Translations under genes and position numbers: made by a program
Notes under the pieces: model-generated
Told to the model about the DNA's origin: nothing
Databases searched by the model: none
Seen by the model: only the letters and a program-made list of their open reading frames with translations
From: a virus
Direction: 5' to 3' (one strand)
DNA length: 37,001 bases
Virus record (IMG/VR): IMGVR_UViG_3300047372_000321
Span: 1 to 37,001 of that record
Shown: positions 10,200 to 36,254 of the stretch, in pieces
Layout: each line of letters starts with the position of its first letter
Numbering within the stretch: position 1 is the first letter of the stretch

Positions 10200-10208
10200 G
10201 TGTTTTAG

Positions 10209-10282
10209 TGAACCAGACAGGATTCGAACCTGTGACCGTCTGCTTAGAAGGCAGATGCTCTATCCAGCTGAGCTACTGGTCC
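10209..10282 (-). tRNA. tRNA-Arg (anticodon TCT)
   Basis: Canonical 74-nt cloverleaf: acceptor GGACCAG / CTGGTTC (one G-U pair), D arm GCTC ... GAGC with a TGG-containing loop, anticodon stem TCTGC / GCAGA with loop CTTCTAA (anticodon TCT, reads AGA), T arm ACAGG-TTCGAAT-CCTGT and discriminator A. No encoded CCA. AGA is a common codon in this AT-rich genome. Confidence 0.97.
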
Positions 10283-10293
10283 ATATTGTTTAG

Positions 10294-10379
10294 TACCCGA
10301 GGACGGGCTCGAACCGTCACGGACATTACTGTCCAAGGGATTTTAAGTCCCTCGTGTCTACCAATTCCACCACTCGGGC
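10294..10379 (-). tRNA. tRNA-Leu (anticodon TAA)
   Basis: Canonical 86-nt class II tRNA: acceptor GCCCGAG / CTCGGGT, D arm with a TTGGTAGAC loop, anticodon stem AGGGA / TCCCT with loop CTTAAAA (TAA, reads UUA), a long variable arm GGACA-GTAA-TGTCC, and T arm GACGG-TTCGAGC-CCGTC. It is the first RNA downstream of the early/middle-type promoter at 10424-10452. Confidence 0.97.
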
Positions 10380-10423
10380 ATTTGGTACTAAATCTAGATG
10401 TCAAAGAGCCTTGTTGTTAATTA

Positions 10424-10452
10424 CAGTACTAATATACGAAATTAATCTGACA
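10424..10452 (-). promoter_or_regulatory. Early/middle-type promoter of the tRNA cluster
   Basis: Minus strand TGTCAG, ten bases, TATATTAGTACTG. It shares its spacing and sequence with three other copies (12218-12246, 12332-12360, 35244-35273). It lies 45 bases upstream of tRNA-Leu and oriented toward it. Confidence 0.7.
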
Positions 10453-10485
10453 ATAAAAAATCTGAGGGCAACTAATTTGTTAAAA

Positions 10486-11526
10486 TTATGAAATTAAGTG
10501 AGGTTTGGCTTCAGCTAGTCCTGCATTTGTAACTACATTATATTCTGCTCGATTAAAATATTCAAGTAGATCATTAGCTCCAGCGTATGAGAATGCTGAT
10601 TTGATTCCATCGGTTAGTCCATTGATAATAAACCTAGCGCCACCTTTAAATGGAATTGTAGTAGACTCGCCTTCAACATTACGTTGCTTTTGAGCGTGTG
10701 TAATTTTAGTCTCTAAAGATGCAGAACCACGGTAGCGTTTGAAAAGACCTGCTGGAGTTTCAAGAATGGCTCCTGGCGACTCCTTTGTACCTGCTAATAG
10801 TGAACCAACCATTACACAATCAGCACCCACTGCGAGCGCTTTTGCAATGTCTCCGGATGATTTAATACCACCGTCTGCCATGATCGGTACTCCACCAGAA
10901 TCTGCAGCTTTAAATACGTCTTCAATTGAGGTTACATTAGGTACACCGAAACCAGTCTTAACACGAGTGGTACAAAGAGAACCTCCCCCAATACCAACTC
11001 GTAGACCATCAGCTCCCCAAGCAATCAGATCTTCTGCTGCTTCTGCCGTTGCGATATTTCCGGCAATAATATCTGTAAAATCTTCCAGATTTGCCTTTAA
11101 TTCAGCTAGAGCGACTTCCATATTGCCATGGTGTCCATGCGCAACATCAACGAGTATGATATTACAACCTGCTTCTTCAAGTGCGGCAGCGCGGTCCAGG
11201 TAGTCTCCTACGACGCCCACTGCTGCCATGATAGGTAGATGTGAAAGTGAAATATCACCATCTCTAAAAGCTACTAGCTTTTTAACCTGTTCTACTTGCT
11301 CTTCAATAGACATAAACCTATGAATACAGCCAACTCCACCCATTTCCATTAGTGTTGCTGCCATTTCATACTCAGTTACTGTGTCCATACAACTACCTAC
11401 AATTGGAATATCAATTGACCAGTTTCTACTAACATTGACTGCTAGTGAGATATTCTGGCGTGTTGGAATGTCAGAAAAGTTAGGGATGAGTTGAATATCA
11501 TCGTACGTTAGTGCTTGCTTTCGCAT
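10486..11526 (-). CDS. GMP reductase / IMP dehydrogenase family enzyme
   Basis: A 346-residue TIM-barrel purine enzyme. It has LTYDDIQLIPNFS (6-18), DVAHGHHGNM (127-136), GNIAT (156-160), the catalytic loop GIGGGSLCTTRVKTGFGVP (178-196) with the catalytic Cys185, MADGGIKSSGDIAKALAVGA and GESTTIPFKG. No CBS domains are present. Its length, the RVKTGFG loop and the lack of an Arg-Tyr dyad before the PFKG flap favour GMP reductase (GMP to IMP, NADPH) over IMP dehydrogenase. The choice needs phylogeny. Guanylate kinase is encoded 3 kb upstream, so purine flux is apparently a target of this phage. Confidence 0.85.
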   Translation of the reverse strand: MRKQALTYDDIQLIPNFSDIPTRQNISLAVNVSRNWSIDIPIVGSCMDTVTEYEMAATLMEMGGVGCIHRFMSIEEQVEQVKKLVAFRDGDISLSHLPIMAAVGVVGDYLDRAAALEEAGCNIILVDVAHGHHGNMEVALAELKANLEDFTDIIAGNIATAEAAEDLIAWGADGLRVGIGGGSLCTTRVKTGFGVPNVTSIEDVFKAADSGGVPIMADGGIKSSGDIAKALAVGADCVMVGSLLAGTKESPGAILETPAGLFKRYRGSASLETKITHAQKQRNVEGESTTIPFKGGARFIINGLTDGIKSAFSYAGANDLLEYFNRAEYNVVTNAGLAEAKPHLIS

Positions 11527-11587: not shown

Positions 11588-12184
11588 TTAAACTTTACCA
11601 GCAATTATAGCTTTTCCTCTACGAATTCTATTTTTAATAGTCTGAAGAGGTAAGTCATACTTCTTAGCAATATCTTCATATTTCATATTGTTAAGTAGTC
11701 TATCTTCTAGAATACCTTTGTACATTGGCTTAAGAGTTTCGATACCTTTAAGAGCTTGTTCGTATCTATTCATTAACTCATCATCTTCATCAATCCAATC
11801 TTGCTCAGATTTATATTCCATTTCAACAAGTAGATCTTTTGCAGAAGTTCTAGCATAATACCTAGATACTTCTATTCCACTATCTTGAAGTGCATCAATA
11901 GATCTTTTCTTATTTCTTTGGCGAATCCAGCCTAGACATTCATTGAATGCAATTCTGTAAAGCCATGTTGTGATTTGATATTGTGGATCGTATTGGTCTA
12001 TTTTAGTCCACATTTTAGTAAGTGTATTTGTGACAATGTCATCTTTAGCCTCATTGTCTTTGACTACGTTAAAGACGTAGTTCTCTAAGCCTGGTTTTAT
12101 TTTATCATATAAGACTTTGTAGTCTTTTTCTGATCTGGATGTTGTAAAATTTTCTGCTAGTTCGCGATAGGATTTTTTAGACAT
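11588..12184 (-). CDS. ECF-like sigma factor, candidate late sigma
   Basis: 198 residues. Region 2 (about 22-98) contains KDDIVTNTLTKMWTKIDQYD and ITTWLYRIAFNECLGWIRQR, the core-binding and -10 recognition helices. An acidic linker (105-145) follows, and then region 4 (about 150-195, YKGILEDRLLNNMKYEDIAK, LPLQTIKNRIRRGKAI), a helix-turn-helix for -35 binding. This two-domain layout is that of ECF sigma factors. By analogy with T4 gp55 it may direct host RNA polymerase to the GATATATA late promoters. It has two tandem early/middle-type promoters upstream. Confidence 0.88.
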   Translation of the reverse strand: MSKKSYRELAENFTTSRSEKDYKVLYDKIKPGLENYVFNVVKDNEAKDDIVTNTLTKMWTKIDQYDPQYQITTWLYRIAFNECLGWIRQRNKKRSIDALQDSGIEVSRYYARTSAKDLLVEMEYKSEQDWIDEDDELMNRYEQALKGIETLKPMYKGILEDRLLNNMKYEDIAKKYDLPLQTIKNRIRRGKAIIAGKV

Positions 12185-12217
12185 ATATGCTTTTTTTTAG
12201 GTTAAACTTCTTAATAA

Positions 12218-12246
12218 CTGTACTAATATAATAAAAATAACTGATA
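12218..12246 (-). promoter_or_regulatory. Early/middle-type promoter, proximal copy before sigma gene
   Basis: Minus strand TATCAG, ten bases, TATATTAGTACAG, ending 33 bases upstream of the sigma-factor ATG. It is the most divergent of the four copies (TATCAG for TGTCAG, no CG before TATATT). Confidence 0.65.
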
Positions 12247-12331
12247 TAAAAAAATGTTTTTGCAATTATTTTGTAATTAGTTTGTCTGTTAGTAGTATTA
12301 TTACATGCTTTTTCGCAAACTTACATAATTA

Positions 12332-12360
12332 CAGTACAAATATACGAAAAAAAACTGACA
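12332..12360 (-). promoter_or_regulatory. Early/middle-type promoter, distal copy before sigma gene
   Basis: Minus strand TGTCAG, ten bases, TATATTTGTACTG. Here the core matches the Bacteroidota -7 consensus TAnnTTTG exactly. The flanking sequence is similar to that of the proximal copy, so the 220-base gap 12185-12405 looks like a duplicated promoter unit. No ORF is supported in that gap. Confidence 0.7.
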
Positions 12361-12405
12361 TAGAAAAATACTATGGCAGTTATTTTGTAAAAGTTATTAA
12401 CAATT

Positions 12406-19272: not shown

Positions 19273-22200
19273 CTAAGCTAATGCGTCGATATTCTTAATT
19301 TTAACACCACTTGAAGTAAGTGCCTTATTAAGTTGTTTAATTGCAGATATTACTCCAGAGTTATCTCCACCAGAAGAACTTGAACCACCGCCAGTAAATG
19401 CTGATTTAAGACTACCCATTGCGTTAGATATTGCATTACCAGAATCTGCAGTTGCAGTCATACCATCACCTACTGTAGTTTTAAATTCACTTAACATATC
19501 TGCTAGATTTTGTAGAGCCTCTTCAAGAGATTCTCCCATTGCAGCAAGTATATCAGTTGGTTCTCCACCTTCTGAAAGTACACCAAGTGCTTCAAACATT
19601 TTTCTAGTCTCAACAAGTTTATCAAGATCCATCGCATTAATTGCACCACTAATCTCTGGCATTGAATCTCCCATTCTAACAGTATTAGCACCAATTGTAG
19701 CCCATAACGTAGCCTGTTTAGCATAACCCTCTGCTCTAGATTTTTCATCAACTGGACCTACAAATGCTCCAAAGAACAATTTACCTTTTTCTGGATCGAA
19801 TGTATTAATTGCTGATATAATACCTGGAACGGAATTACCCATTTTCTCAAAAGTATTTCCAACAGCAGAAATCATCCATCTTTGTTCTTTAATAGTTTGC
19901 GCATCTGTCCCCTCGTCTGGATTAGTAAATACTCCAATAATATCTGCCATTTTACCAGCAAACGCTTTAGAGTCCATCTTACCTACTATTTCAATAATGG
20001 TTTTTACAGATTCACCTAATTTCTTATATGGCTCGCCAATCATACTAACAATTTCAATACCCTTTTCAAAAGTGGTTTCGCCTTGCCACCATGATGATGT
20101 TTTAGCCTTGCCACCACCAATTGCCATAAGAGTATCTGTTAGAGCCTCGATTAACATTTGAGTATTGGTTTTTATCTTTGCTTTTAGACCTTCTGTATTT
20201 CCAATAGTCTGATAACCAGTAATTTTACCGTCTTTATCGTAAATAGGGAACTTTAACTTGGCCATAGCTTCTACACCTTTCGCTAGGTTTAATAGAGGCT
20301 CACCAATACCTGTTACAATTGCAATACCTTTTTCAATAGTAGATTTACCACCCCACCATGAACCGTCATTTGCATCTGGATTAGAACCAATTTGTGCAAA
20401 AGTACCGGAAAGTGAACCAACTAACATTTGAGTATTATCAGCAACTGCTTTAGCATCGTCTACGCTAAATTGTCTAAAGCCTGTAGCTTTACCTTCTTTA
20501 TCAAAACCAGTTGGGAATTTAAGCAATGCCATATCTTGTACACCACCTGCAATATTACTTAAGGCTTGTCCCATATTCATTACAGATTCAATACCTTGTT
20601 GAACAGCACCGCCACCTGCTAAGAAGCCTAATAGACCGCCTGAACTTGGTTTACCAAAATCAACCTTCATTTTATTACCATCCGGGCCAATAATTTCTTG
20701 TTCACCACCCATTCCAATCTTAGCGAAAGGAACTGCAAGTGAACCAACCATCATCATTGTATTAGTAATTACTTTCTTGAATGCATCACCACCAATAGTC
20801 TCAAATTTTGTTGGGTTACCTTCTTTATCAAAGCCAATTGGGAATCTAAGATTGGCCATAGCCTGAACACCTTTAGCAATACCTGTAAGTGCCCTACCCA
20901 TATTCATGGTTGATGCAACACCTATTGCAACTGTATTCTTTTTACCTAAGCCAAATAAGCCGCCACCGCCACCTCCAAATTTAACTTTAGTAATTGTGCC
21001 GTCTGCGCCTAGAACTTCCATCTCTTCACCAGCACCAATTTTATGGAATGGTACTGCTAATGTACCTAACATTAACGAGATATTTTTACCTAGTTCTGGT
21101 AAATCAAGTCCATCATTTTGTAGTTTAGCAAATCTTTTAAGACCAAGACCAACTGTCATTAAAGCAACACCTGCTGCAACCATTGCGCCTGAACCTAATA
21201 AGATACCTGCTGCTGTCCACGGCCACATAACAAATGCTTCACCAATTGCTTTAAAGACGGGTACTAAACCAGTCTTTTCATCGGTTAGTTTATCAATATT
21301 ACCACCAGATAAAACTTTAGATATAACAGCAATACCCGCTCCTACTGCTAGTAAAGCAACACCTGCAACTATCATTGCTCCTGCTCCTAATGCAATAAAC
21401 GCTGGAATTGGTCCTGCGCCTGCAATACCAAAGACTACACCTAGACCTCCAATCAGGGCCATTGTAGCGCCAATCATTGGCCAAGGATTTGAACCTAATG
21501 CTGCTGTAATAATTTTAAAACCTATTCCTATGACTATTAAGGATGCTCCGACAAGTATCATCGCGATAGCTCCTTTCTTAATAAATGATTCACCAACGCC
21601 AATTAATGCAAACGCAGCTGCTAATAGACCTATTACTAAGAGTGCTCCTAAACTTTTAGCAGCCTCTTCACCAGTAATATTGCCAATTATTTTACCAAAG
21701 AATAGGAGTGAAAGACCTAATACGATAATGGATAAAGAAACCCATAGCATTGATTTAGCTCCTGATTCAATATAATCTCCAGCAATGCCGATTAATGCAA
21801 ATGCAAGTCCAATTCCTATTACAGTACCCATAACCATTAATACTGTTCCAATATTTGGCATAAGTACTTGGAATAGAGCTAAAGAAACACCTAATGCTAA
21901 AATTGATAGACCAGCAAACATAAGCCCTTTACCGGCTTTTTCCATGTTATCTACAACACCAAACTTTTCTAATACATAAAATGCTAATGCAATTGCACCA
22001 ATTACAAATATTGATAAGATAGCACCTTTAATCGCAGGACCTGCAATTATACTAACTAGTGCAAATGTAACTGATAATGCTAATAGACCTAATGCAACAT
22101 CTAGAATGGCATTACCCATGGTTTGCATTTTATCTAATACTTTGTCTGGAACTAAATATGCAATTAATGCAATAGTACCTATTAATAGAACACTTACTAA

Positions 22201-22827
22201 AGCTCCCTCAAGTGCAGATTTTGAAATTAAAGTAGTTAATGCTAAAGTAGCTGCTAACATCAGTATTGATTTACCGACATCTCCCATCATTTTAACCTTC
22301 TCTAGCTTTTCTTGATCTAAATTCTTAGTACCAAAATTAATACCTGCTACAAGTGCTCTTAATGTAAGTGCTATGAGTGGAGTACCTATTACTGCCACCA
22401 TTAATAATGGGGCGGCTAATACCATATATCCAGCAAACTTTAGTATTGATTTACCAACATCTCCTAGTAGAGTAAAACCTGATGCTAAGCCTTCCATTTT
22501 GGCTTTAACTTCTTCTCCGGTATCGTCTAGATTATTTATAGCGTCTACAACAAATTGCAAACCAGTACCAAGCGGCTCCATGGCAGGTGCTATGAGTGCA
22601 ATTGCCATTGAATTAGCAAGAGAGCCCATACCTTTTTTACCACCTTTTCCGTCTCTAATATCTTCAATGGCAGTGGCCATGGCATCCATTCTATCATAGA
22701 ATTCGCCACCTACTGCTAATGATACTGCAGTATTTTCAGTATTAACTGCTATTTGACCTAGAACATTGCCCTGGCTACCTAACTTGTCGAAGGCGCCAGC
22801 TAATGATTTCATGAAATTTTGAGCCAT
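19273..22827 (-). CDS. Large hydrophobic tail protein, candidate tape measure
   Basis: 1184 residues. Residues 1-70 are soluble (AQNFMKSLAGAFDKLGSQGN). Residues about 80-560 are a long succession of Gly/Ala/Ile/Leu-rich hydrophobic helices, typical of tape-measure proteins. Residues 570-1000 hold about four repeats of a module (TNTMMMVGSLAVPFAKIG, then MNMGQALSNIAGGVQDMALL). The C-terminus ends in a Ser/Gly-rich linker and helix. It lies downstream of tube and hub genes, where a gp29-type tape measure or hub protein is expected, and is about twice the T4 gp29 length, implying a longer tail. A membrane-acting role in DNA entry is compatible with the hydrophobic part. Confidence 0.7.
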   Translation of the reverse strand: MAQNFMKSLAGAFDKLGSQGNVLGQIAVNTENTAVSLAVGGEFYDRMDAMATAIEDIRDGKGGKKGMGSLANSMAIALIAPAMEPLGTGLQFVVDAINNLDDTGEEVKAKMEGLASGFTLLGDVGKSILKFAGYMVLAAPLLMVAVIGTPLIALTLRALVAGINFGTKNLDQEKLEKVKMMGDVGKSILMLAATLALTTLISKSALEGALVSVLLIGTIALIAYLVPDKVLDKMQTMGNAILDVALGLLALSVTFALVSIIAGPAIKGAILSIFVIGAIALAFYVLEKFGVVDNMEKAGKGLMFAGLSILALGVSLALFQVLMPNIGTVLMVMGTVIGIGLAFALIGIAGDYIESGAKSMLWVSLSIIVLGLSLLFFGKIIGNITGEEAAKSLGALLVIGLLAAAFALIGVGESFIKKGAIAMILVGASLIVIGIGFKIITAALGSNPWPMIGATMALIGGLGVVFGIAGAGPIPAFIALGAGAMIVAGVALLAVGAGIAVISKVLSGGNIDKLTDEKTGLVPVFKAIGEAFVMWPWTAAGILLGSGAMVAAGVALMTVGLGLKRFAKLQNDGLDLPELGKNISLMLGTLAVPFHKIGAGEEMEVLGADGTITKVKFGGGGGGLFGLGKKNTVAIGVASTMNMGRALTGIAKGVQAMANLRFPIGFDKEGNPTKFETIGGDAFKKVITNTMMMVGSLAVPFAKIGMGGEQEIIGPDGNKMKVDFGKPSSGGLLGFLAGGGAVQQGIESVMNMGQALSNIAGGVQDMALLKFPTGFDKEGKATGFRQFSVDDAKAVADNTQMLVGSLSGTFAQIGSNPDANDGSWWGGKSTIEKGIAIVTGIGEPLLNLAKGVEAMAKLKFPIYDKDGKITGYQTIGNTEGLKAKIKTNTQMLIEALTDTLMAIGGGKAKTSSWWQGETTFEKGIEIVSMIGEPYKKLGESVKTIIEIVGKMDSKAFAGKMADIIGVFTNPDEGTDAQTIKEQRWMISAVGNTFEKMGNSVPGIISAINTFDPEKGKLFFGAFVGPVDEKSRAEGYAKQATLWATIGANTVRMGDSMPEISGAINAMDLDKLVETRKMFEALGVLSEGGEPTDILAAMGESLEEALQNLADMLSEFKTTVGDGMTATADSGNAISNAMGSLKSAFTGGGSSSSGGDNSGVISAIKQLNKALTSSGVKIKNIDALA

Positions 22828-22884: not shown

Positions 22885-22909
22885 CTCCTTATTACTATAT
22901 TATATATCT

Positions 22910-24476: not shown

Positions 24477-25034
24477 TTACGCTAATTCTTCTGAGTAAGT
24501 ATCACACTTCCAAGTTACATCCATTGATACTGCATCTTGAGTTTCGTAATTTAGATCTGCGTTTAAGTTTACACCTGATGTAATGAAACAGTCATCTAAA
24601 GTTACTTTTCTGTAAATGTCACCTTCTCTATTGAATTGTACAACAACAATAGTACCTACATAATTCTTCTTAAGACCCATTTCGCCAGTTTCAGGATTGT
24701 AAGCTGCTCTGTACCATTGTCTTAATGTTTTGTATATGTAAGCCTGATTCGAATCGTTTAGGTTTAGAGAGAAATTAATCGTAATGTCTAGCGATGTAGT
24801 CCCAGGCATACCTGCGAAATTTCTTTCTGCAAATTTATATTTTTGTGGAACTGCAGCTAATTCAACACTAAGTCCGTCTAAACCAGTGATTGTATTAACT
24901 TGCTGTAAGAGCATCTCTGCGCCAGTAACACCTGCTGGAGGTAATAATGTTACCTCAAATAGGTTACCTTGTACTGGTTCGAAATTCCTACCTTTCTTTT
25001 GAGTTTGGTCCTCTGAATAATGTGGTAAAGCCAT
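24477..25034 (-). CDS. Tail tube protein, T4 gp19-like
   Basis: 185 residues. It has the gp19 features: an N-terminal segment GNLFEVTLLPPAGVTG, GLDGLSVELAAVPQKYKFAE for tube stacking, TTSLDITINFSLNLNDSN, and the alpha-loop YIYKTLRQWYRAAYN. VTLDDCFITSGVN and a final TWKCDTYSEE strand follow. Its length is near T4 gp19 (163). It follows the sheath gene on the same strand and has the best late promoter in the window 19 bases upstream, with a strong terminator after it. High-level expression as a major structural protein is expected. Confidence 0.9.
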   Translation of the reverse strand: MALPHYSEDQTQKKGRNFEPVQGNLFEVTLLPPAGVTGAEMLLQQVNTITGLDGLSVELAAVPQKYKFAERNFAGMPGTTSLDITINFSLNLNDSNQAYIYKTLRQWYRAAYNPETGEMGLKKNYVGTIVVVQFNREGDIYRKVTLDDCFITSGVNLNADLNYETQDAVSMDVTWKCDTYSEELA

Positions 25035-25052: not shown

Positions 25053-25064
25053 TATTTATATATC
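25053..25064 (-). promoter_or_regulatory. Late promoter of the tail tube gene
   Basis: Minus strand GATATATAAATA contains TATAAATA, identical to the T4 late consensus. It is 18 bases upstream of the ATG at 25034, within the 39-base gap between sheath and tube genes. Confidence 0.75.
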
Positions 25065-25073
25065 GTTATTTTA

Positions 25074-27926
25074 TTATGCAAAGTTACCTGTTGCGATCTC
25101 TCCTGTATTTAATACAGTTACCCTAGATACTAGAATCTCAAGACCTTTAACTGGTTCAACGAATGTATCAAGAATACCCATGTTGTTATCGATCACCTCA
25201 GTTGTGTTGTTTGAAGTGTCCATGATGTTCTTGTAGTCGTATACACCACCATCTTTCTTAACTGATTCCATAAAGTTATCAGCTAAAGTTTTGATTTCTA
25301 ATCTAGTTTGAGCTGTATTAAACTCGAATAGATAGTTTTTAAGAATTTCAGCTAAACCATCTTCAATATAGATAAGAACTTCTCTTACGTGTGCTGAAGA
25401 TAAGGCTGATTGAATTCCTTGCTGTGCAGTTTTATTACCTTTGATTGTTAAACCAACGCCTCTTTCAAATACGATTGGGTTGTAACCAAATGGTTCAAGT
25501 ACATCTCTATCATTCTTATCGAATGAGAATTCTAAAGATTGAACACCTGTTCCACCTACAACACCTCTTCTTGGGCCTGCGATGATTGACCATGGTAATG
25601 CATCTAAATATTTGTCAATATAGTTATTTGATACGTAAGCTGCTGGTGGAATAACTTTAGTTCTACCGTTCTCAATTACGTTAAGACCAGGACCGTAGTA
25701 GAATGCATAGTTTGCACCTTCATTGATCGATGGTAATGTGTAAAGAGCTGTTGGGTTTAACTCTAAGTTACCTCCTGTTGCAACGTTATTCACGTCAAAT
25801 GCACCAGTGATAGCATTTAAGAATGATGGGTTTGTAGAAGCTTTTAATTCTTTCACCATTGGTGCGTTAAGAATTGCAGAAGCGTTCTGTCTTTCTTTAC
25901 ATAAGAATGATAATTCTTCTTTGTTTAAGATTCCACCGTTCTCTAATGAACCGAATGTATCAACTACATATCTAAATGTAATATTATCTTTATCTACTAA
26001 AGCGTTACCTAAACCAGTACCTGGCTTAATTGCTGATAGTAATTCTGCAATACTTTTTGCAGTTTGAGTTGCTCCTTCTAATGGGAATGTCTTATAGAAT
26101 CCACCTGCATCCTCATATCTCTTAAGAGAGTATGATGGTCTTGAAGAAACTGCTCTATGTGTTTCAAATCTGTAGTAAGTAGTTCCGTTAACAACAGTTT
26201 TAACGATCTTTTTAATTCTAGATAGTTTACCACCGTCACCTGGTACATACATGCCTACTTTAATATCTGAATTCCAAGTTGCATCATTTGAACCTGATAA
26301 TGTGAAGATACCTGCACCGTTATCAGTAAATGTCCATCCTTCTGATAATGTTGGGAACATTTCTGCTCTTGCATTTGGAGTTAACGTCCATACATCAAAT
26401 GATGTATTAATACCCGCAAAGAAAGCTGTTAATGAATTACCAACACCACCGTATTGAGTACTAAATGAAAGTCCACCTGCACATGAGATTGTTAATTCAC
26501 CATCTTCTACAGAAACATTTGAGATAGCAACATACTCACCAGCGTTAACTGATTCTAAGAAGTTACCAACTACAATTGATTCGTAAGATGTTGGTGTTGC
26601 ATCAACTACAATATTACCATCTTCATTAACAATAAAGTTAGCGTTAGATGCCCATGGAGCTGGAGTACCTGGATTATATTTTTCATAAGATTTTGAAATA
26701 GCACCAGAAGCAACGATTGTTACTTGACCTTCACCATTTGCACCCGAACCAGTATTAGTGATACTTTCGATCTTAACATATTCACCTCCAACATAAGCTT
26801 CTAAGTATTTAGAATCTGTAATACCATGTAAAGAGGATAAGTTAGCTGCACTTAAAGCAGGATCGTTACCTTGGATGGTTAATGTTGAACCAGCAACTGA
26901 TACGATACCAGCCTGTGCTGTTAAATCTACGATAGATTCTGCAGCTACTTGCTTCACTTTATGAGAAAGAATCTCATAATCTTGGTAGATGTCAAAGTTG
27001 TTACCTACTAGATCAATTTGTGGAAGTGCATCTTCTTGTACTGCACAGAATAAACCAGTTCTTCTAGCCTCCATATTAATTAGAGTCTCGATATACATTT
27101 GGTTACCTTCTGCATCAATAAATTCAGGAATTAATGATACACCATTATATTGTGCTAACAGAGTTACTTCTCTTAAACCAGCAAACTTAGCGAATTCTGA
27201 TTTTAATAACCCGTCTTGAGTAAAGTAGTTTCCGTAGTTTGGATCGTTATTTAATTCAGCAGCGTCAAACTTGCCTTTAAATACAAATACATCTACTAGG
27301 TAATCTGATACGTACTCATCTGCATCAATACCTTCTGGAATATTTGATTCACCATACCATTCTCTTGCTGTTAATTCAAAACCTCTAACATCTCCAGCTT
27401 GTCTAATGATAACTGTGATTGGATCTTGTTTGATATTAACAAATGAGATTGCGTGGTTTGTGTCTTCTGCAGCAGCAGATAAAAGTTTTTCATCTGAAGG
27501 ATTCCAAAACTTGTCTGTATCAAATACAGCATTAAATTGCTTTGAAGCAGCATTTGATGCTTGTAATGAATTAGCTGATAAACCTTCTTGTGATGAGTTA
27601 GTTGCTGGAGAGAAAATTGATACTCTATCAGCAGTATCTGCACCAGTTAAGTTTAATGCTAGAATAGGACCTCTAGATAAAGCCTCGATAGCTGATCTGT
27701 GGAAGAACATTCCTTTCTTTTCTAACGACTTGTCTACACCACCGAAAACTTGCTTGAATTGTTCTACATCTTCTACTAATACTGGAGTATTGTAAGGACC
27801 CTTTTTAGATCTACCTACAACTAGTCTAATAGTTTCTGCAGGGATGTTAACAGTCTGTGACTTGTCAAACTCTAAGCGATATACGCCCGAGCTTTTGAAC
27901 TGTAATAATTGAGGACTTAATGCCAT
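25074..27926 (-). CDS. Tail sheath protein, T4 gp18-like
   Basis: 950 residues. The N-terminus GVYRLEFDKSQTVNIPAETI and LVVGRSKKGPYNTPVLVEDV, with EQFKQVFGG, matches contractile sheath proteins. The C-terminal half has NNYIDKYLDALPWSIIAGPR, the conserved KNDRDVLEPFGYNPIVFERG, HVREVLIYIEDGLAEILKNY and VEPVKGLEILVSRVTVLNTG. The middle (about 330-640) carries extra Thr/Asn/Gly-rich beta-like sequence, absent from the 659-residue T4 gp18, probably a surface domain on the sheath. It has its own late promoter 28 bases upstream. Confidence 0.9.
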   Translation of the reverse strand: MALSPQLLQFKSSGVYRLEFDKSQTVNIPAETIRLVVGRSKKGPYNTPVLVEDVEQFKQVFGGVDKSLEKKGMFFHRSAIEALSRGPILALNLTGADTADRVSIFSPATNSSQEGLSANSLQASNAASKQFNAVFDTDKFWNPSDEKLLSAAAEDTNHAISFVNIKQDPITVIIRQAGDVRGFELTAREWYGESNIPEGIDADEYVSDYLVDVFVFKGKFDAAELNNDPNYGNYFTQDGLLKSEFAKFAGLREVTLLAQYNGVSLIPEFIDAEGNQMYIETLINMEARRTGLFCAVQEDALPQIDLVGNNFDIYQDYEILSHKVKQVAAESIVDLTAQAGIVSVAGSTLTIQGNDPALSAANLSSLHGITDSKYLEAYVGGEYVKIESITNTGSGANGEGQVTIVASGAISKSYEKYNPGTPAPWASNANFIVNEDGNIVVDATPTSYESIVVGNFLESVNAGEYVAISNVSVEDGELTISCAGGLSFSTQYGGVGNSLTAFFAGINTSFDVWTLTPNARAEMFPTLSEGWTFTDNGAGIFTLSGSNDATWNSDIKVGMYVPGDGGKLSRIKKIVKTVVNGTTYYRFETHRAVSSRPSYSLKRYEDAGGFYKTFPLEGATQTAKSIAELLSAIKPGTGLGNALVDKDNITFRYVVDTFGSLENGGILNKEELSFLCKERQNASAILNAPMVKELKASTNPSFLNAITGAFDVNNVATGGNLELNPTALYTLPSINEGANYAFYYGPGLNVIENGRTKVIPPAAYVSNNYIDKYLDALPWSIIAGPRRGVVGGTGVQSLEFSFDKNDRDVLEPFGYNPIVFERGVGLTIKGNKTAQQGIQSALSSAHVREVLIYIEDGLAEILKNYLFEFNTAQTRLEIKTLADNFMESVKKDGGVYDYKNIMDTSNNTTEVIDNNMGILDTFVEPVKGLEILVSRVTVLNTGEIATGNFA

Positions 27927-27954: not shown

Positions 27955-27966
27955 TTATTATATATC
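27955..27966 (-). promoter_or_regulatory. Late promoter of the tail sheath gene
   Basis: Minus strand GATATATAATAA, 28 bases upstream of the ATG at 27926 and immediately after the terminase gene. Ten bases after GG-ATATATAATAAAAG the transcript would start in the leader. Confidence 0.65.
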
Positions 27967-29816: not shown

Positions 29817-30476
29817 TTATTCTTCTGTTGGTTCAACGTCTTCAATATCCTCTTCTTCAGCAGCTCCGTGTATACCTGCTTGAATTGCGGCCATTAAGTC
29901 TTTTGTACCTCTTTGGATATTTTTATTACCAGTATCTCCACCAGCACCTTCGATTTCAGATTGATTTGCTCTTTGCTGATATATCTCAATATCTCTAGCA
30001 ATTCTTTTTGTACCCTCTTCTGCTGCCATTAAGTACATTGTCTGAGATTTAATAATATCTAACATTGACTTTTGTAGAGTTGCTAACACCTCGAACATTC
30101 TTGGTGCTAATTCGCCAGAGTCAATTGTTTCTAATAGAGTGGTTAAGGCTTTTTCACCGGCTTGTAGCTGATATATCAAAGATGACATAGTCATCTCATC
30201 CATTTGCTTTTTAGCTTTAATATACTCGTCTTTCTCAATAATATCTGCATCCAGATAGAATTTCATTAAAGAAGTTATAGTTCTTTGTGCCTTCTTTGTT
30301 GCACCAGCTTTTAACTCAGTATAATTAACTAATGGCGCTAAAGCAGTAGGCTTAGCCTGAATAGGCAAATCCTTAGGATCGTTATCAACATCAAGAGGAG
30401 AGTCTCCAATTAATGCATCTAATTCCTGCCTAATATCATCTGCTTGTTCTGCTATTGTTTTTTTCTTTTCACTCAT
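29817..30476 (-). CDS. Terminase small subunit, T4 gp16-like
   Basis: 219 residues, mostly helical. The central TSLMKFYLDADIIEKDEYIK, then AKKQMDEMTMSSLIYQLQAG, is the pattern of T4-type small terminases (a FYLD-DIIxKDxY helix pair). The N- and C-terminal tails are acidic and disordered (C-terminus EDIEDVEPTEE). It is directly upstream of the large terminase, its usual partner. It would assemble as a ring, recognise phage DNA and stimulate gp17. Identification rests on motif and position. Confidence 0.8.
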   Translation of the reverse strand: MSEKKKTIAEQADDIRQELDALIGDSPLDVDNDPKDLPIQAKPTALAPLVNYTELKAGATKKAQRTITSLMKFYLDADIIEKDEYIKAKKQMDEMTMSSLIYQLQAGEKALTTLLETIDSGELAPRMFEVLATLQKSMLDIIKSQTMYLMAAEEGTKRIARDIEIYQQRANQSEIEGAGGDTGNKNIQRGTKDLMAAIQAGIHGAAEEEDIEDVEPTEE

Positions 30477-30492
30477 AATATAATATTATATT

Positions 30493-30501
30493 CTATATAT
30501 C
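30493..30501 (-). promoter_or_regulatory. Late-type promoter element of the terminase genes
   Basis: Minus strand TAGATATATAGAATATAATA, 16 bases upstream of the ATG at 30476, so leader length is very short. It lies between the 54-aa ORF and the small terminase gene and shares the GATATATA core. Confidence 0.55.
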
Positions 30502-30707: not shown

Positions 30708-32672
30708 TTATCGGTTTTGGTTATACTTTCTTAATTGAATAGAAGGAACTGCATTGTCAATAATCTCTGCTAGGTGACTATCTCTTACAATATATTGCTG
30801 TAACATATTTGTATGCTGATCCTTTCCTATTGTTTGGTTAAATAATCTAATATTCGTAACAGCTAAATTACCAGGCATTAGCGAATATTGTTTTTGAGTT
30901 ACCCATCCTTGCGCAGCTGTAATTTCAAAATTGTGATCCATCACATTTTCTAATGTATCTGAAACTGGCATAGATGTTAATTTATTACTATTTGGATTTA
31001 GCTTGTATACATTGGCTGAAGTATTTAAGTACTTATTATTTAGATTATACACTAAGCCGTACCAATTACCATTAACTGGTGGTGTAGCAAATCCATATTC
31101 TAGAATTAAATCATTAATATATGCTTTAATAAAAGTTTGATTTACTGTTATTTTTATACCTTTACCTCCTTGCCATCCATCAAATATAGTTTGCTCTTGG
31201 GTAGCAGAAGTCATATTAGGTTTGAACCATGTGGTTATTGCTAAATTATTAGTATTCGGTAGTTGTGAAAATTTCTTGTATAATAAACATTCAATACCTC
31301 GATCTTTTACAGATTCTAAATCATAATGGTTTTTTGCAACAATCGTCCACTTGTTTCTAAGTTCTTTATCTGATATAACTAAACCGTTATGAATTCTATC
31401 TCTAACTCCATCTCCTACCTCAGAGAATACAGTTTGATATTGTGTAGATTTAGTAGTTTTTTCAAATTCATCTTTTTGCTCAGCACCAAATACTTCTTCA
31501 ACACCAGTATAAAGATCATCTAATTGTTGTTCCATTGCTTGACCCTCAGCAGTATCTGTATCTATAATACTTGACGTACGTTCTTCATATTTAGATAACA
31601 TTAATCTCCAGTAAGTCATGGTTTGATTAAACTCATCAGCAAAACTTACAGAAGATACTTCATACATTCTATTCATAATTGGAATGTACATATAGTCTCT
31701 AGGCCTTGGATGAATACCTGGTCCAAATGCTGCTTCCATTTGACCTTTTGTAATATGGATTTCAAAATCCTCGAAGCCCATTCCAAAAATATCATATTGG
31801 AATTCTCTAGTAGGCATCTCATTATCAGGAACCATAATCTTTAGGTTCCCTTGTTCTTTTACATTATATAGAGAATATTCTTTTAAGATTACATCTCTAG
31901 ATCTTTGATCAGGTTCAACTCTAAAATACTGAGTATCATGTCCCCACATATTAGCAGATAATTCACTAATCTCTGAATATATCGCAGTAGGTTTACTTAA
32001 ATTATATGGATCGTAAATAGGGTCTGAACAATCAATTACTACATTTGTACAACCTGCTAGATATGGGTCATCACAATCTGTACAAAGTTGTGGACAAGAT
32101 TGTATTGTACCGTCTGCTGTTTCTAATTCGAAAGTAACTGAAAGTAAACTTAAACTATGTAAAGATGAAAGTCTATGAACTTCTGCTTTTACATCAATCC
32201 AAAGTGGTTTTGTTGGATCAAAAGTCATACCTAGTAAATCTCTTGGGCCAATACTATTATTCAAAGGCCTTAACTCCGACATCTGTCCACCATCACTAGA
32301 AACGCTATCCTGTGACCATCTGAAATCATAGTTAAAATAATTATCTGCGTCTGTATATTCATAAAATTTTACAGCACTTGCAGAAAAACCAGCAGAGTCT
32401 ACAGTAGTAATAACATTTCCGTCAACGCTATTAACCTGAAATATTTGAGACCCTGCAATAAACAAATTACCGGGACTTAAATTAAAATTAGTACCAGTAC
32501 CAATAATTGTCGTACTACCTTGAGTTATTGCTAAAGTACCTACTGAATTAGGTGAGTTTACACCCACTAAAATATTCCAAGAAATAATACGATTAACATT
32601 CGTATATGGTTCCTGTAATTTAGCGAAGAAGTAATCCCCGATAGCATTCGCTGTAAAATTTGTTACTGCCAT
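30708..32672 (-). CDS. Neck protein with T4 gp14-like core and added domains
   Basis: 654 residues, far longer than T4 gp14 (256). Residues about 45-105 (GTLAITQGSTTIIGTGTNFN ... IFQVNSVDG) match a beta module common in phage tail proteins. Residues 190-215 hold a Cys cluster (CPQLCTDC ... CTNVVIDC). Residues 285-365 (FQYDIFGMGFEDFEIHITKG ... YIPIMNRMYEVSSVSFADEF) resemble the gp14 core. Residues about 470-580 (AITTWFKPNMT, GIKITVNQTFIKAYINDLIL) look like a LamG/concanavalin-type beta-sandwich that could bind glycan. Position upstream of gp16-gp17 matches the T4 order 13-14-15-16-17. Confidence 0.7.
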   Translation of the reverse strand: MAVTNFTANAIGDYFFAKLQEPYTNVNRIISWNILVGVNSPNSVGTLAITQGSTTIIGTGTNFNLSPGNLFIAGSQIFQVNSVDGNVITTVDSAGFSASAVKFYEYTDADNYFNYDFRWSQDSVSSDGGQMSELRPLNNSIGPRDLLGMTFDPTKPLWIDVKAEVHRLSSLHSLSLLSVTFELETADGTIQSCPQLCTDCDDPYLAGCTNVVIDCSDPIYDPYNLSKPTAIYSEISELSANMWGHDTQYFRVEPDQRSRDVILKEYSLYNVKEQGNLKIMVPDNEMPTREFQYDIFGMGFEDFEIHITKGQMEAAFGPGIHPRPRDYMYIPIMNRMYEVSSVSFADEFNQTMTYWRLMLSKYEERTSSIIDTDTAEGQAMEQQLDDLYTGVEEVFGAEQKDEFEKTTKSTQYQTVFSEVGDGVRDRIHNGLVISDKELRNKWTIVAKNHYDLESVKDRGIECLLYKKFSQLPNTNNLAITTWFKPNMTSATQEQTIFDGWQGGKGIKITVNQTFIKAYINDLILEYGFATPPVNGNWYGLVYNLNNKYLNTSANVYKLNPNSNKLTSMPVSDTLENVMDHNFEITAAQGWVTQKQYSLMPGNLAVTNIRLFNQTIGKDQHTNMLQQYIVRDSHLAEIIDNAVPSIQLRKYNQNR

Positions 32673-32699: not shown

Positions 32700-32711
32700 T
32701 TATTATATATC
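32700..32711 (-). promoter_or_regulatory. Late promoter of the neck protein gene
   Basis: Minus strand GATATATAATAA, 27 bases upstream of the ATG at 32672. The element overlaps the last codons and stop of the preceding gene (Asp-Ile-stop at 32703-32711). An AGAGT-TAAG-ACTCT hairpin lies in the leader. Confidence 0.65.
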
Positions 32712-33797: not shown

Positions 33798-33956
33798 TTA
33801 CTTACACCACTCGAGGAATGCCATATTATATGCTTCCTCATAAGAATATCCTTCTTTTAAAAGTTTATTAGCCCATTTGGTAACTTCAGCTTTTAAACCA
33901 TAAGCATTAGCTTCAGCTAGAATTTCTTCAATTAATAAATGTTCATCTAAAGTCAT
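33798..33956 (-). CDS. Small helical protein (52 aa), hypothetical
   Basis: The ORF begins MTLDEHLLIEEILAEANAYG and continues TKWANKLLKEGYSYEEAYNM, ending AFLEWCK. Its ATG overlaps the RNase H gene stop by one base (TAATG), which supports translation. Acidic, all-helical, no family recognised. Confidence 0.6.
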   Translation of the reverse strand: MTLDEHLLIEEILAEANAYGLKAEVTKWANKLLKEGYSYEEAYNMAFLEWCK

Positions 33957-35221
33957 TAGAATAACTTTTTAGTTGGATCTTTTTTTGATGTCTTCTTAGT
34001 CTTTTTACCTACTAACTTCATAGGAGACTTTGGATCTTCTTTTGGAATATCCATACCTGCGAAAGGGTCTGGTGCAAAGTTAGCTTTCTTAGCTCCTTCT
34101 AACCAATCAGTACCTTCTAGTATTTTATCCATCTCCATAATAGACTCTTTTGATTCAATTGCTCCTTCCCAATCTCTTTCAATAGCTTCATAGATAGCTT
34201 TTTGAATTGGATCTGGGATAGTTTTATTATGCAATAACATTAGAGCAATATTGGTAGTAAGATTAGTCTTAATTAAAGTAGTATTAGTATGTCCTATTAC
34301 TCTATAGATAATATCTGATAGAATATCTTTTGCTTCTGATGAAAACAAGAAGTCAATTGTAAAGTTGTCATACTCTTTAATGTATTGTTTCCAGATAGTC
34401 TCTGCAGTTTTATCTGTGATAGAATAGTTTCTAAGTTTACCATTCTTCATTTCTTTTTGCCATGTAACAACTGACTGGATATTATCTGATTTATCACCTA
34501 CAAGTATTTTCTTAAAGATAAACTCATCACAGTCAATCTCTTCTGTTTTAATCTTATTAGCTTTTATCCAGTCCATAATATCGTTTTGATAATTATCACG
34601 CAACATAGACTGACCGCCCATATTGAATAACATATCATCATTTGAAATTTCTGCAGTAGCTGAAGTATTCATATCCCTTTCGAAACCTTTATATGCATAA
34701 AGTGTTTTCTTAGTATTGTAATACCACAGTGTATGTGCATCGTTGGTTTGTGAATAGTTAACTAATTGAATTAGATCGCGATCACCTGACCATACAATAC
34801 ATGATTTACCTCTAGCATTTAGAGCGGCTGACCATCCGAAGATAACATCATCTGCTTCTGCGCCTTGGATCTGGTGTACAGTAACACCCTTGCTTGCTAC
34901 AATCTTTTGAAATTCTTCATAGACTGCATATACCGATGGCCAGTCTACAGTTTGGTTTTGCTTTCTTGTACCTTTATAGTCTGATGCTGGAAATAGATCT
35001 TTACGCCAAGACTTTGAGTCTACAGCTAATAATACATCATCTACAAACATCTTAAGCTTACGCATCTCTGATGCAAAGTCAATAGATAATTTGCGCATAA
35101 ACTGCGCTCGTTGTTTATCATCAGCAAGTAATTTGCCTTGCTTTGGTTTCGGTAATACGAATAGTCTACTGAAGACAAAGTAGTTACCGTCGATTAATAG
35201 TGTATGTTTTCCCACTTTCAT
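33956..35221 (-). CDS. rnh: T4-type RNase H / 5'-3' exonuclease (FEN family)
   Basis: 421 residues, versus 305 in T4. The FEN/PIN nuclease core carries TLLIDGNYFVFSR (Asp11), AVDSKSWRKDLFPASDYKGT (Arg/Lys cluster around the second Asp), QGAEADDVIFGW (Glu/Asp-Asp), SGDRDLIQLV and KKILVGDKSDNI. The extra C-terminal about 100 residues are Lys-rich (KKTKKTSKKDPTKKL) with a DPFAGMDIP segment, perhaps for clamp or SSB contact. It removes RNA primers and flaps during replication. An early/middle-type promoter lies 22 bases upstream. Confidence 0.9.
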   Translation of the reverse strand: MKVGKHTLLIDGNYFVFSRLFVLPKPKQGKLLADDKQRAQFMRKLSIDFASEMRKLKMFVDDVLLAVDSKSWRKDLFPASDYKGTRKQNQTVDWPSVYAVYEEFQKIVASKGVTVHQIQGAEADDVIFGWSAALNARGKSCIVWSGDRDLIQLVNYSQTNDAHTLWYYNTKKTLYAYKGFERDMNTSATAEISNDDMLFNMGGQSMLRDNYQNDIMDWIKANKIKTEEIDCDEFIFKKILVGDKSDNIQSVVTWQKEMKNGKLRNYSITDKTAETIWKQYIKEYDNFTIDFLFSSEAKDILSDIIYRVIGHTNTTLIKTNLTTNIALMLLHNKTIPDPIQKAIYEAIERDWEGAIESKESIMEMDKILEGTDWLEGAKKANFAPDPFAGMDIPKEDPKSPMKLVGKKTKKTSKKDPTKKLF

Positions 35222-35243
35222 ATCTTATGTTTGTTATGCTTTT

Positions 35244-35273
35244 CTAGTACTAATATACGAAAAATATCTGACA
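35244..35273 (-). promoter_or_regulatory. Early/middle-type promoter of the RNase H gene
   Basis: Minus strand TGTCAG, ten bases, TATATTAGTACTAG. It shares the CG immediately before TATATT and the TTTTTCTA run upstream of TGTCAG with the copy at 12332-12360. Confidence 0.7.
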
Positions 35274-35297
35274 TAGAAAAATTATTTAACACTTTTT

Positions 35298-36254
35298 TTA
35301 GCCTTTAATTATTCCTTGTATCTCATAAACGCAACTTAACATTGTGATTACGGGATCTATTACATGAACTCTCTGCTGTTGGTGTTTAGCTACAGAAATA
35401 ATGATCTGTGGGATATGCTTAACCGATTGCAATTGTTCTTGTTGTATATATTCTATAAACTCTTCGCCTAACGATTGTAGAATATCATCGACTCTATTAG
35501 AATAATTACTAACTAGTAGTTGATAGTTTTTAGCTGGATCAGTCTCGTTAAAGATTAATTCAAATACGTCTTTATAGACTGAGTTAAATCTCTTTACATC
35601 TCCAACTGTAATATTATTTGTACCTTGAGTTTTAAACCCTTGTAATTTGTTAAGCGTAGATCTAAGATCTGGGAAGTTACGCCTAACAAATTCTACTAGA
35701 GCATCTTTCTCAATTGTCATTTCTTCCTGTTTACAAATATCATATACTCTACGAATATACTTCTTTGTTAACTCGGTCTCCTCTTCTTTATCAAAGTCAA
35801 AGTTAATGACTTCAAATCTAGATAGGATTGGGTCTGGCAACTTATTGATATAGTTACAAGTTGCGATAAATCTTGAATTGGATGCAAATTGCTCCATAGT
35901 AGCACGAAGTGCTTTAAAGAACTGATCTGATACACCATCGACCTCATCTAGGATAACTACCTTAAACATCCCAGGCCCATCCATAATTGAGACTGTAGAA
36001 CAGAAATCTGTAATTCTAGTTCTAATTACATCTACAGAGGTATCTGTGGACGCGTTGATGTACAAATAAGGCAATCCAAACTGATTGACAACGGCTTTTG
36101 CAGTAGAGGTCTTACCTGTTCCTGGTGAGCCTGCAAATAGCATATTCTGGACTAGTCCGTCTTTGAACTTATTCATTACTGCATCAGGCAGTATTAGTTC
36201 TTCTAAATTTTTTGGCCGATACTTCTCGGTAAAAAGTTGGTTTATTGATTGCAT
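35298..36254 (-). CDS. Clamp-loader large subunit, T4 gp44-like
   Basis: 318 residues (T4 gp44 is 319). It is an AAA+ ATPase with KYRPKNLEELI (11-21), Walker A AGSPGTGKTS (41-50), Walker B VVILDEVDGV (99-108), sensor ATCNYINKL and the arginine-finger motif LSRFE (144-148). DLRSTLNKLQGF lies in the C-terminal domain. It loads the sliding clamp onto primed DNA. It is separated from RNase H by 76 bases containing the promoter. Upstream is a divergent intergenic region; a TATAAC element (36273-36278) on the minus strand could start its transcript. Confidence 0.95.
   Translation of the reverse strand: MQSINQLFTEKYRPKNLEELILPDAVMNKFKDGLVQNMLFAGSPGTGKTSTAKAVVNQFGLPYLYINASTDTSVDVIRTRITDFCSTVSIMDGPGMFKVVILDEVDGVSDQFFKALRATMEQFASNSRFIATCNYINKLPDPILSRFEVINFDFDKEEETELTKKYIRRVYDICKQEEMTIEKDALVEFVRRNFPDLRSTLNKLQGFKTQGTNNITVGDVKRFNSVYKDVFELIFNETDPAKNYQLLVSNYSNRVDDILQSLGEEFIEYIQQEQLQSVKHIPQIIISVAKHQQQRVHVIDPVITMLSCVYEIQGIIKG

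Follow-up and report, generated by a model that had tools for sequence, protein, structure and literature searches.

To our knowledge, hardly any work has dealt with gene timing in the T4-like phages that infect Bacteroidota. Among the promoters recognized by ECF sigma factors, such as E. coli sigmaE and B. subtilis SigW, those of SigW read TGAAAC-N16-CGTA, combining a 16-bp spacing with CGTA. The SigW -35 sequence, TGAAACxTTT, is followed by Ts (PMC6713349). T4 middle promoters, which need MotA and AsiA, carry a MotA box, (a/t)3TGCTTtA, at 12 ± 1 bp from the -10 element (PMC2988021), whereas T4 late promoters (TATAAATA), which depend on gp55, sit at structural genes. Bacteroidota sigma-A promoters, as in F. 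psychrophilum and the Tenacibaculum phage PTm1, have the form TTG...TAnnTTTG; in Flavobacterium, sigma-A recognizes TAnnTTTG at -12 to -5 (PMC9723704).

Genes and predicted host

The window, that is, the whole 37,001-nt stretch of viral DNA from IMG/VR analysed here, encodes on its minus strand a 198-aa ECF-type sigma factor (11588-12184; Pfam Sigma70_r2, 1.8e-10, and Sigma70_r4_2, 1.4e-6), the AlphaFold model of which finds its best matches in E. coli sigmaE, Mtb SigH and SigW. By Pfam profile and predicted fold, this protein is a two-domain (sigma2-sigma4) ECF factor. Also on the minus strand are a 5'-3' exonuclease gene of the T4 RNase H-like kind (33956-35221; PF02739, 6e-16; phrog_107 exonuclease) and genes for tRNA-Arg and tRNA-Leu detected by ARAGORN (10208-10379), and genes of T4 type encode a tail sheath, a large terminase and a gp44-like clamp loader. 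A dehydrogenase-family gene (10486-11526; phrog_9582, 1e-95), with a product that we take to resemble IMP dehydrogenase or GMP reductase, lies between the sigma gene and the promoter of the tRNA genes. The contig edge (58-1164) encodes a protein with a CHU_C type IX secretion (T9SS) signal domain (8e-16), and, among named isolates, Tenacibaculum and Flavobacterium phages supply some of the best terminase relatives; on account of these two features, the host of the virus is probably a member of the Bacteroidota. At the DNA level, comparison of the region with named phages revealed mostly tRNA-level similarity.

Four related predicted promoters in the window

The pattern TRTCAG-N10-TATATT, reported in four copies by the first-pass annotation, matches the window exactly four times, always on the minus strand, at 10431-10452, 12225-12246, 12339-12360 and 35252-35273. 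The chance expectation from 100 dinucleotide-preserving shuffles of the window is 0.04 matches, with a maximum of one, and the reversed control of the longer form described below gave zero matches, which together exclude a chance origin of the four copies. Permitting two mismatches added window matches at chance level only, four thus being the full count. The annotation had also placed a T-rich run 5' of the copies, TACTGTAATTA or TACAGTTATTA 3' of three of them, and the tRNA cluster, the sigma factor (twice) and RNase H as their neighbours. All of these were found, the tRNAs being tRNA-Leu/-Arg and the RNase H a 5'-3' exonuclease of the T4 RNase H kind.

The first copy (10414-10477, 71.6 bits), located 5' of the tRNA genes, has its box at 10452-10448, the -10 element TATATT at 10436-10431 and a predicted +1 at 10424. 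Two copies precede the sigma gene. The proximal one (12208-12271, 71.8 bits), with the box TATCA at 12246-12242, a -10 element at 12230-12225 and a predicted +1 at 12218, is situated 35 nt 5' of the ATG (12184) that opens the sigma gene, and the distal one (12322-12385, 78.9 bits) has its box at 12360-12356, the -10 element TATATTTG from 12344 and a predicted +1 at 12332. The fourth copy (35235-35298, 57.7 bits), 5' of the RNase H-like exonuclease gene, comprises a box at 35273-35269, a -10 element at 35257-35252 and a predicted +1 at 35245, and the copy stands 25 nt 5' of the ATG at 35221. These four motifs are almost certainly members of one phage promoter class, hereafter class E.

An equivalent of the distal sigma promoter was also found in several close sigma loci. 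In the closest relatives that carry it (loci L171, L172, L180, L182 and L184), the distal promoter has TATATTTG and the proximal one TATATTAG, as if one form were suited to the host sigma and the other form to the phage factor. Because the copies are orthologous, the split may reflect a single event.

The complete element and its distribution

Alignment of copies from 11 records showed TGTCR, a T-rich 11-bp stretch and TATATTWGTAC followed by TGTAATTAAAA, with conservation that sets in 25 bases 5' of the TGTCA box and, measured from the box's first base, continues for about 38 bases in the 3' direction. The full element is therefore an indel-free unit of about 64 bp, AAATAATTGCC-N5-ATTTTTTTA-TGTCR-N11-TATATTWRYA-CTGTAATTAAAA, and an ATG lies about 20 nt after the predicted transcription start. 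The core proposed in the first-pass annotation is real, but its consensus was drawn too tightly: TGTCR, the box, comes in lineage variants (TGTCA, TTTAA, TTTGA and GTTCA), and TATATT alone is near-constant. The spacing between box and -10 element is 11 bp in 112 of 114 sites.

A PWM scan of the 11 records identified 64 sites above 14 bits, compared with 0 in first-order Markov-shuffled controls. Of 68 sites, 60 fell outside ORFs (at least 80 aa) in sequence that is 85-96% coding, contrary to the location mainly inside genes that the first-pass annotation had named as refuting its proposal, and most sites ended about 20 nt 5' of an ATG (modal distance 20-21 nt). Related phage contigs contain more than 300 distinct copies. 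A scan of viral contigs with the short pattern, in which the counts for each record were compared with those of the reversed pattern, mixed true family members with likely chance matches in unrelated contigs. A 24-base long form gave at least 119 matches in viral contigs against 0 for its reversed control, and a single match among 84,980 bacterial genomes. That match (L400, 659-693) comes from a metagenome bin assigned to Bacteroidales, where it lies on a contig of 5 kb that is probably a misbinned phage contig.

The carriers of class E form a large, broad group of mostly uncultured T4-like viruses of Bacteroidota. No earlier description was found in the open-access literature searched, which left most subscription papers beyond reach. 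Class E is a widespread promoter family and amounts to a variation on early/middle promoter strategies already known from phages, not to a new kind of system. Its compact promoters could be usable as genetic parts for Bacteroidota. In one record (G066), class E copies occur at 170449, 171494 and 172539 (L377 10449-12564, corresponding to 170449-172564), 1045 bp apart, and a second pair of sites has the same 1045-bp spacing, which suggests tandem duplication of a promoter-gene unit.

Two proposed promoter classes with nearly separate gene sets

In related genomes, unsupervised motif discovery in the sequences 5' of ORFs recovered class E, or its upstream half, as a leading motif in the genomes carrying it, and RATATATAA (class L) as a second element. 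The two classes precede nearly disjoint gene sets, with at most one common downstream gene per genome: class E is found ahead of the sigma factor, polynucleotide kinase, RNA ligase, DNA ligase, the RNase H-like exonuclease, helicase-like proteins, small ORFs and tRNAs, whereas class L is found ahead of the portal, major head protein, head protease and a tail tube-like protein. The window follows the same division, with class E at the tRNAs, the sigma factor and RNase H, and GATATATA at the tail sheath and other large ORFs. Its class L cores, all on the minus strand, read GATATATAA at 27958-27966 (5' of the tail sheath gene, 25074-27926), 25056-25064 (5' of the ORF 24477-25034), 32703-32711 (5' of the ORF 30708-32672) and 22900-22908 (upstream of the 1184-aa ORF 19273-22827), and GATATATAG at 30493-30501 (5' of the ORF 29817-30476).

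The intergenic position and the non-structural gene set bear out the proposal of a promoter family ahead of early/middle-type genes, and by analogy with T4 class E very probably represents an early/middle (non-late) class, and class L would be the late class. Like T4, the motif-bearing phages encode a gp55-like protein, and they carry a short late-type promoter rich in A and T, RATATATAA. T4 late promoters sit at structural genes, however, whereas class E is a different element that avoids such genes, RATATATAA filling that role. With a two-class promoter map (class E at non-structural and RATATATAA at structural genes), likely gene timing becomes readable from metagenomic contigs alone. In the Flavobacterium phage MaF61 (PQ858689, 1-100000; L395, L396), a different conserved, promoter-like motif, TGCAAC-N15-GCATT, precedes 24 of 55 intergenic-led ORFs, and some of its copies fall within hairpins.

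Predicted transcription start and -10 register

ATG positions were counted from the first base of the box at 243 sites followed by an ORF of at least 55 codons. They peak at 48 and cluster at 40-60; four lie at 27, 28, 28 and 30, and a single one (34) falls within 31-39. For two of the four early ATGs there is no later in-frame ATG within 40 codons, and leaderless starts at 27-30 would place the 5' end of the transcript at these positions. The ordinary host-type promoters of PTm1 share TATATTTGYAnnGTAATTAAAA in the same register as class E. Given the leaderless ATGs, the initial sequence in common with PTm1 and the sigma-A register of TAnnTTTG, TATATT would be the -10 element and transcription would start near position 28, about 12 nt after the first base of TATATT, which would place the T-tract at -36 to -30 and TGTCR at -28 to -24.

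This histogram also bears on a canonical ECF geometry, in which TGTCAR would be the -35 and WRYA the -10 element, 16 bp apart, with TATATT as a mere AT-rich spacer. The spacing TGTCAR-N16-WRYA equals that of SigW, and Ts follow the upstream box in class E as they follow the SigW -35 TGAAACxTTT (PMC6713349). However, such a promoter would require a start at about 34-36, and the ATGs at 27-30 fall upstream of it; in addition, no other part of the element is as constant between lineages as TATATT, and the tail is variable. In view of the histogram, this geometry is considered quite improbable.

Class E shares with Bacteroidota sigma-A promoters the predicted -10 position, much of the -10 sequence and the initial transcribed GTAATTAAAA, in agreement with the resemblance of the core to the Bacteroidota -7 box seen in the first-pass annotation. 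Unlike them, class E lacks the -33 TTG and has a TGTCR box, and the host TG, at -6/-5, follows TATATT in only 19 of 152 sites (12%), TATATT itself being always present; the tail of the -10 element is instead a lineage-specific AG or TA. Exact TTG-TAnnTTTG pairs number 20 in PTm1, at spacers 18-20, but 0-4 in each motif-bearing genome, scattered over spacers 15-23. The earlier statement that TRTCAG differs from the -33 TTG therefore stands, and a host-type TTG-N19-TAnnTTTG promoter was dropped, TTG being missing about 19 bp upstream of the -10 element.

These observations have to be weighed when class E is read as an ordinary strong early promoter that host sigma-A recognizes unaided and that, like T4 early promoters, has additional conserved regions. 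Such a reading accounts for the host-like -10 element and initial sequence, for A-rich and T-rich upstream blocks resembling UP elements, and for the fact that no other early class was seen in the motif-bearing genomes. However, TTG is missing at 18-20 bp in class E, though PTm1 does use it (20 exact TTG-N18..20-TAnnTTTG pairs), and AG or TA tails are fixed by lineage in place of the host TG. Unaided sigma-A is accordingly an unlikely reader, and class E probably needs a phage factor.

Candidate specificity factor

In the favoured explanation, host core RNA polymerase would begin transcription 12 nt past the first base of TATATTWR, the -10 element; the host -33 TTG would be replaced by the T-tract (-36 to -30) and then by the phage-specific TGTCR (-28 to -24), at a fixed 11 bp and with an A-rich block upstream; and specificity would come from a phage factor, most likely the phage ECF-type sigma. 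As the ECF sigma gene itself lies under a class E promoter, positive autoregulation would follow, and the structural genes would have a promoter of their own, RATATATAA, with the gp55-like late sigma as its presumed reader. The chances that class E drives the non-structural genes with the phage ECF sigma as likely specificity factor appear evenly balanced. The identification of the phage factor with the ECF sigma falls a little short of such a balance, and it ranks ahead of an activator acting with sigma-A, which in turn ranks ahead of unaided sigma-A.

A PWM-positive site precedes the sigma gene in 38 of 55 loci, and the rest of those inspected have a diverged version with the same geometry; no clear class E was found upstream of the sigma genes of LR756500 and Lak. 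Three related phages, PTm1, MaF61 and PAU, have neither the ECF sigma nor the motif. This co-occurrence is, however, confounded by ancestry. On the sigma tree, the -10 tails clustered by lineage (11 changes vs 17.9 with shuffled labels), which fits co-evolution and common descent alike. As in the sigmaE and SigW systems, the phages encode an ECF sigma, the gene of which is led by its own promoter, here judged by the position of the motif, and a T-rich stretch follows the upstream box at a rigid spacing. Unlike in those systems, the -10 element is TATATTWR in the sigma-A register instead of GTC/CGTA, and the box would lie at -28 to -24 instead of about -35. In the large genomes the gp55-like protein is encoded separately from the ECF sigma, and a late role for the ECF sigma was dropped on that ground. 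A phage-encoded multisubunit polymerase was likewise dropped, as no RNAP of the Rpb2 type (PF00562) was found.

Several observations weigh against the ECF sigma. Its weakest point is geometry, because the box is about 7 bp closer to the -10 TATATT than in ordinary sigma region 4 binding. The box also varies, yet the sigma4 helix LQTxKNRxxRG shows almost no variation, and in G074, a record of 175 kb that may be incomplete, class-E-like sites occur although no ECF sigma was matched. The host-type -10 element and initial transcribed sequence favour host sigma-A, and, as no separate host-type early class is visible, something must start class E at time zero.

The first-pass annotation had suggested a phage activator, and an appropriation of the T4 middle kind would have sigma-A read TATATT while a separate phage activator binds TGTCR in place of the -33 contact. 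Class E resembles T4 middle promoters in having a host-register -10 element at -12 to -7, a phage box replacing the host -35, a box-to-(-10) spacing of 11 bp compared with 12 ± 1 for MotA (PMC2988021), and pre-late functions in a T4-like phage; the host-type register and initial sequence shared with PTm1 also suit an activator, as does the T-tract occupying the place of TTTTGG. However, the box is TGTCR and not TGCTT, the element is an indel-free 64 bp, and the -10 tail departs from the host optimum, whereas in T4 middle promoters the host -10 element is excellently preserved (PMC2988021); here the host TG occurs in 19 of 152 sites only. Pfam searches of 14 records, in which the T4 control was detected and which diverged proteins could escape, returned no homologue of MotA (PF09114) or AsiA (PF09010), both of which were dropped as candidates, and no candidate activator was found. 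The T4 promoters need these proteins, whereas the class E phages have an ECF-type sigma in the absence of Pfam homologues. An activator working with sigma-A is hence regarded as a less probable, though credible, arrangement. The ECF sigma, by comparison, is a named and testable specificity factor, and, if it proves true, it would constitute a third route by which T4-like phages redirect the host polymerase, besides MotA/AsiA and gp55.

Copies merged with terminator hairpins

In 34 of 309 distinct sites (about 1 in 9), the element forms a perfect 8-9 bp hairpin around a T-loop, in which the right arm is the box and the T-run is the spacer. The arms differ among sites (TGTCAGGC, TTTGGGCT, TCTCGGGC and TCTGGAG) and the left arms match them, that is, the changes compensate each other; stems of at least 5 occur at 36 sites, against a mean of 12.9 with left arms shuffled. 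The hairpin copies mostly depart from TGTCA, which implies that the box tolerates T-N-T-S-R. These perfect hairpins followed by a T-run are what would be expected if the motif were mainly a terminator, or another repeat, and not a promoter; however, most sites are hairpin-free and yet keep the box and the -10 element at a narrow distance 5' of start codons, making that interpretation highly improbable. With the ECF sigma as reader, a tentative picture is that it recognizes a non-standard promoter (TATATT as -10, TGTCR at -28 to -24) which in some copies has merged with an intrinsic terminator, giving a one-piece stop-and-start element for the early programme. Examples in which class E and a terminator are fused include L128 5541-5566 (G018 105541-105566), L375, L378 and L380, among others.
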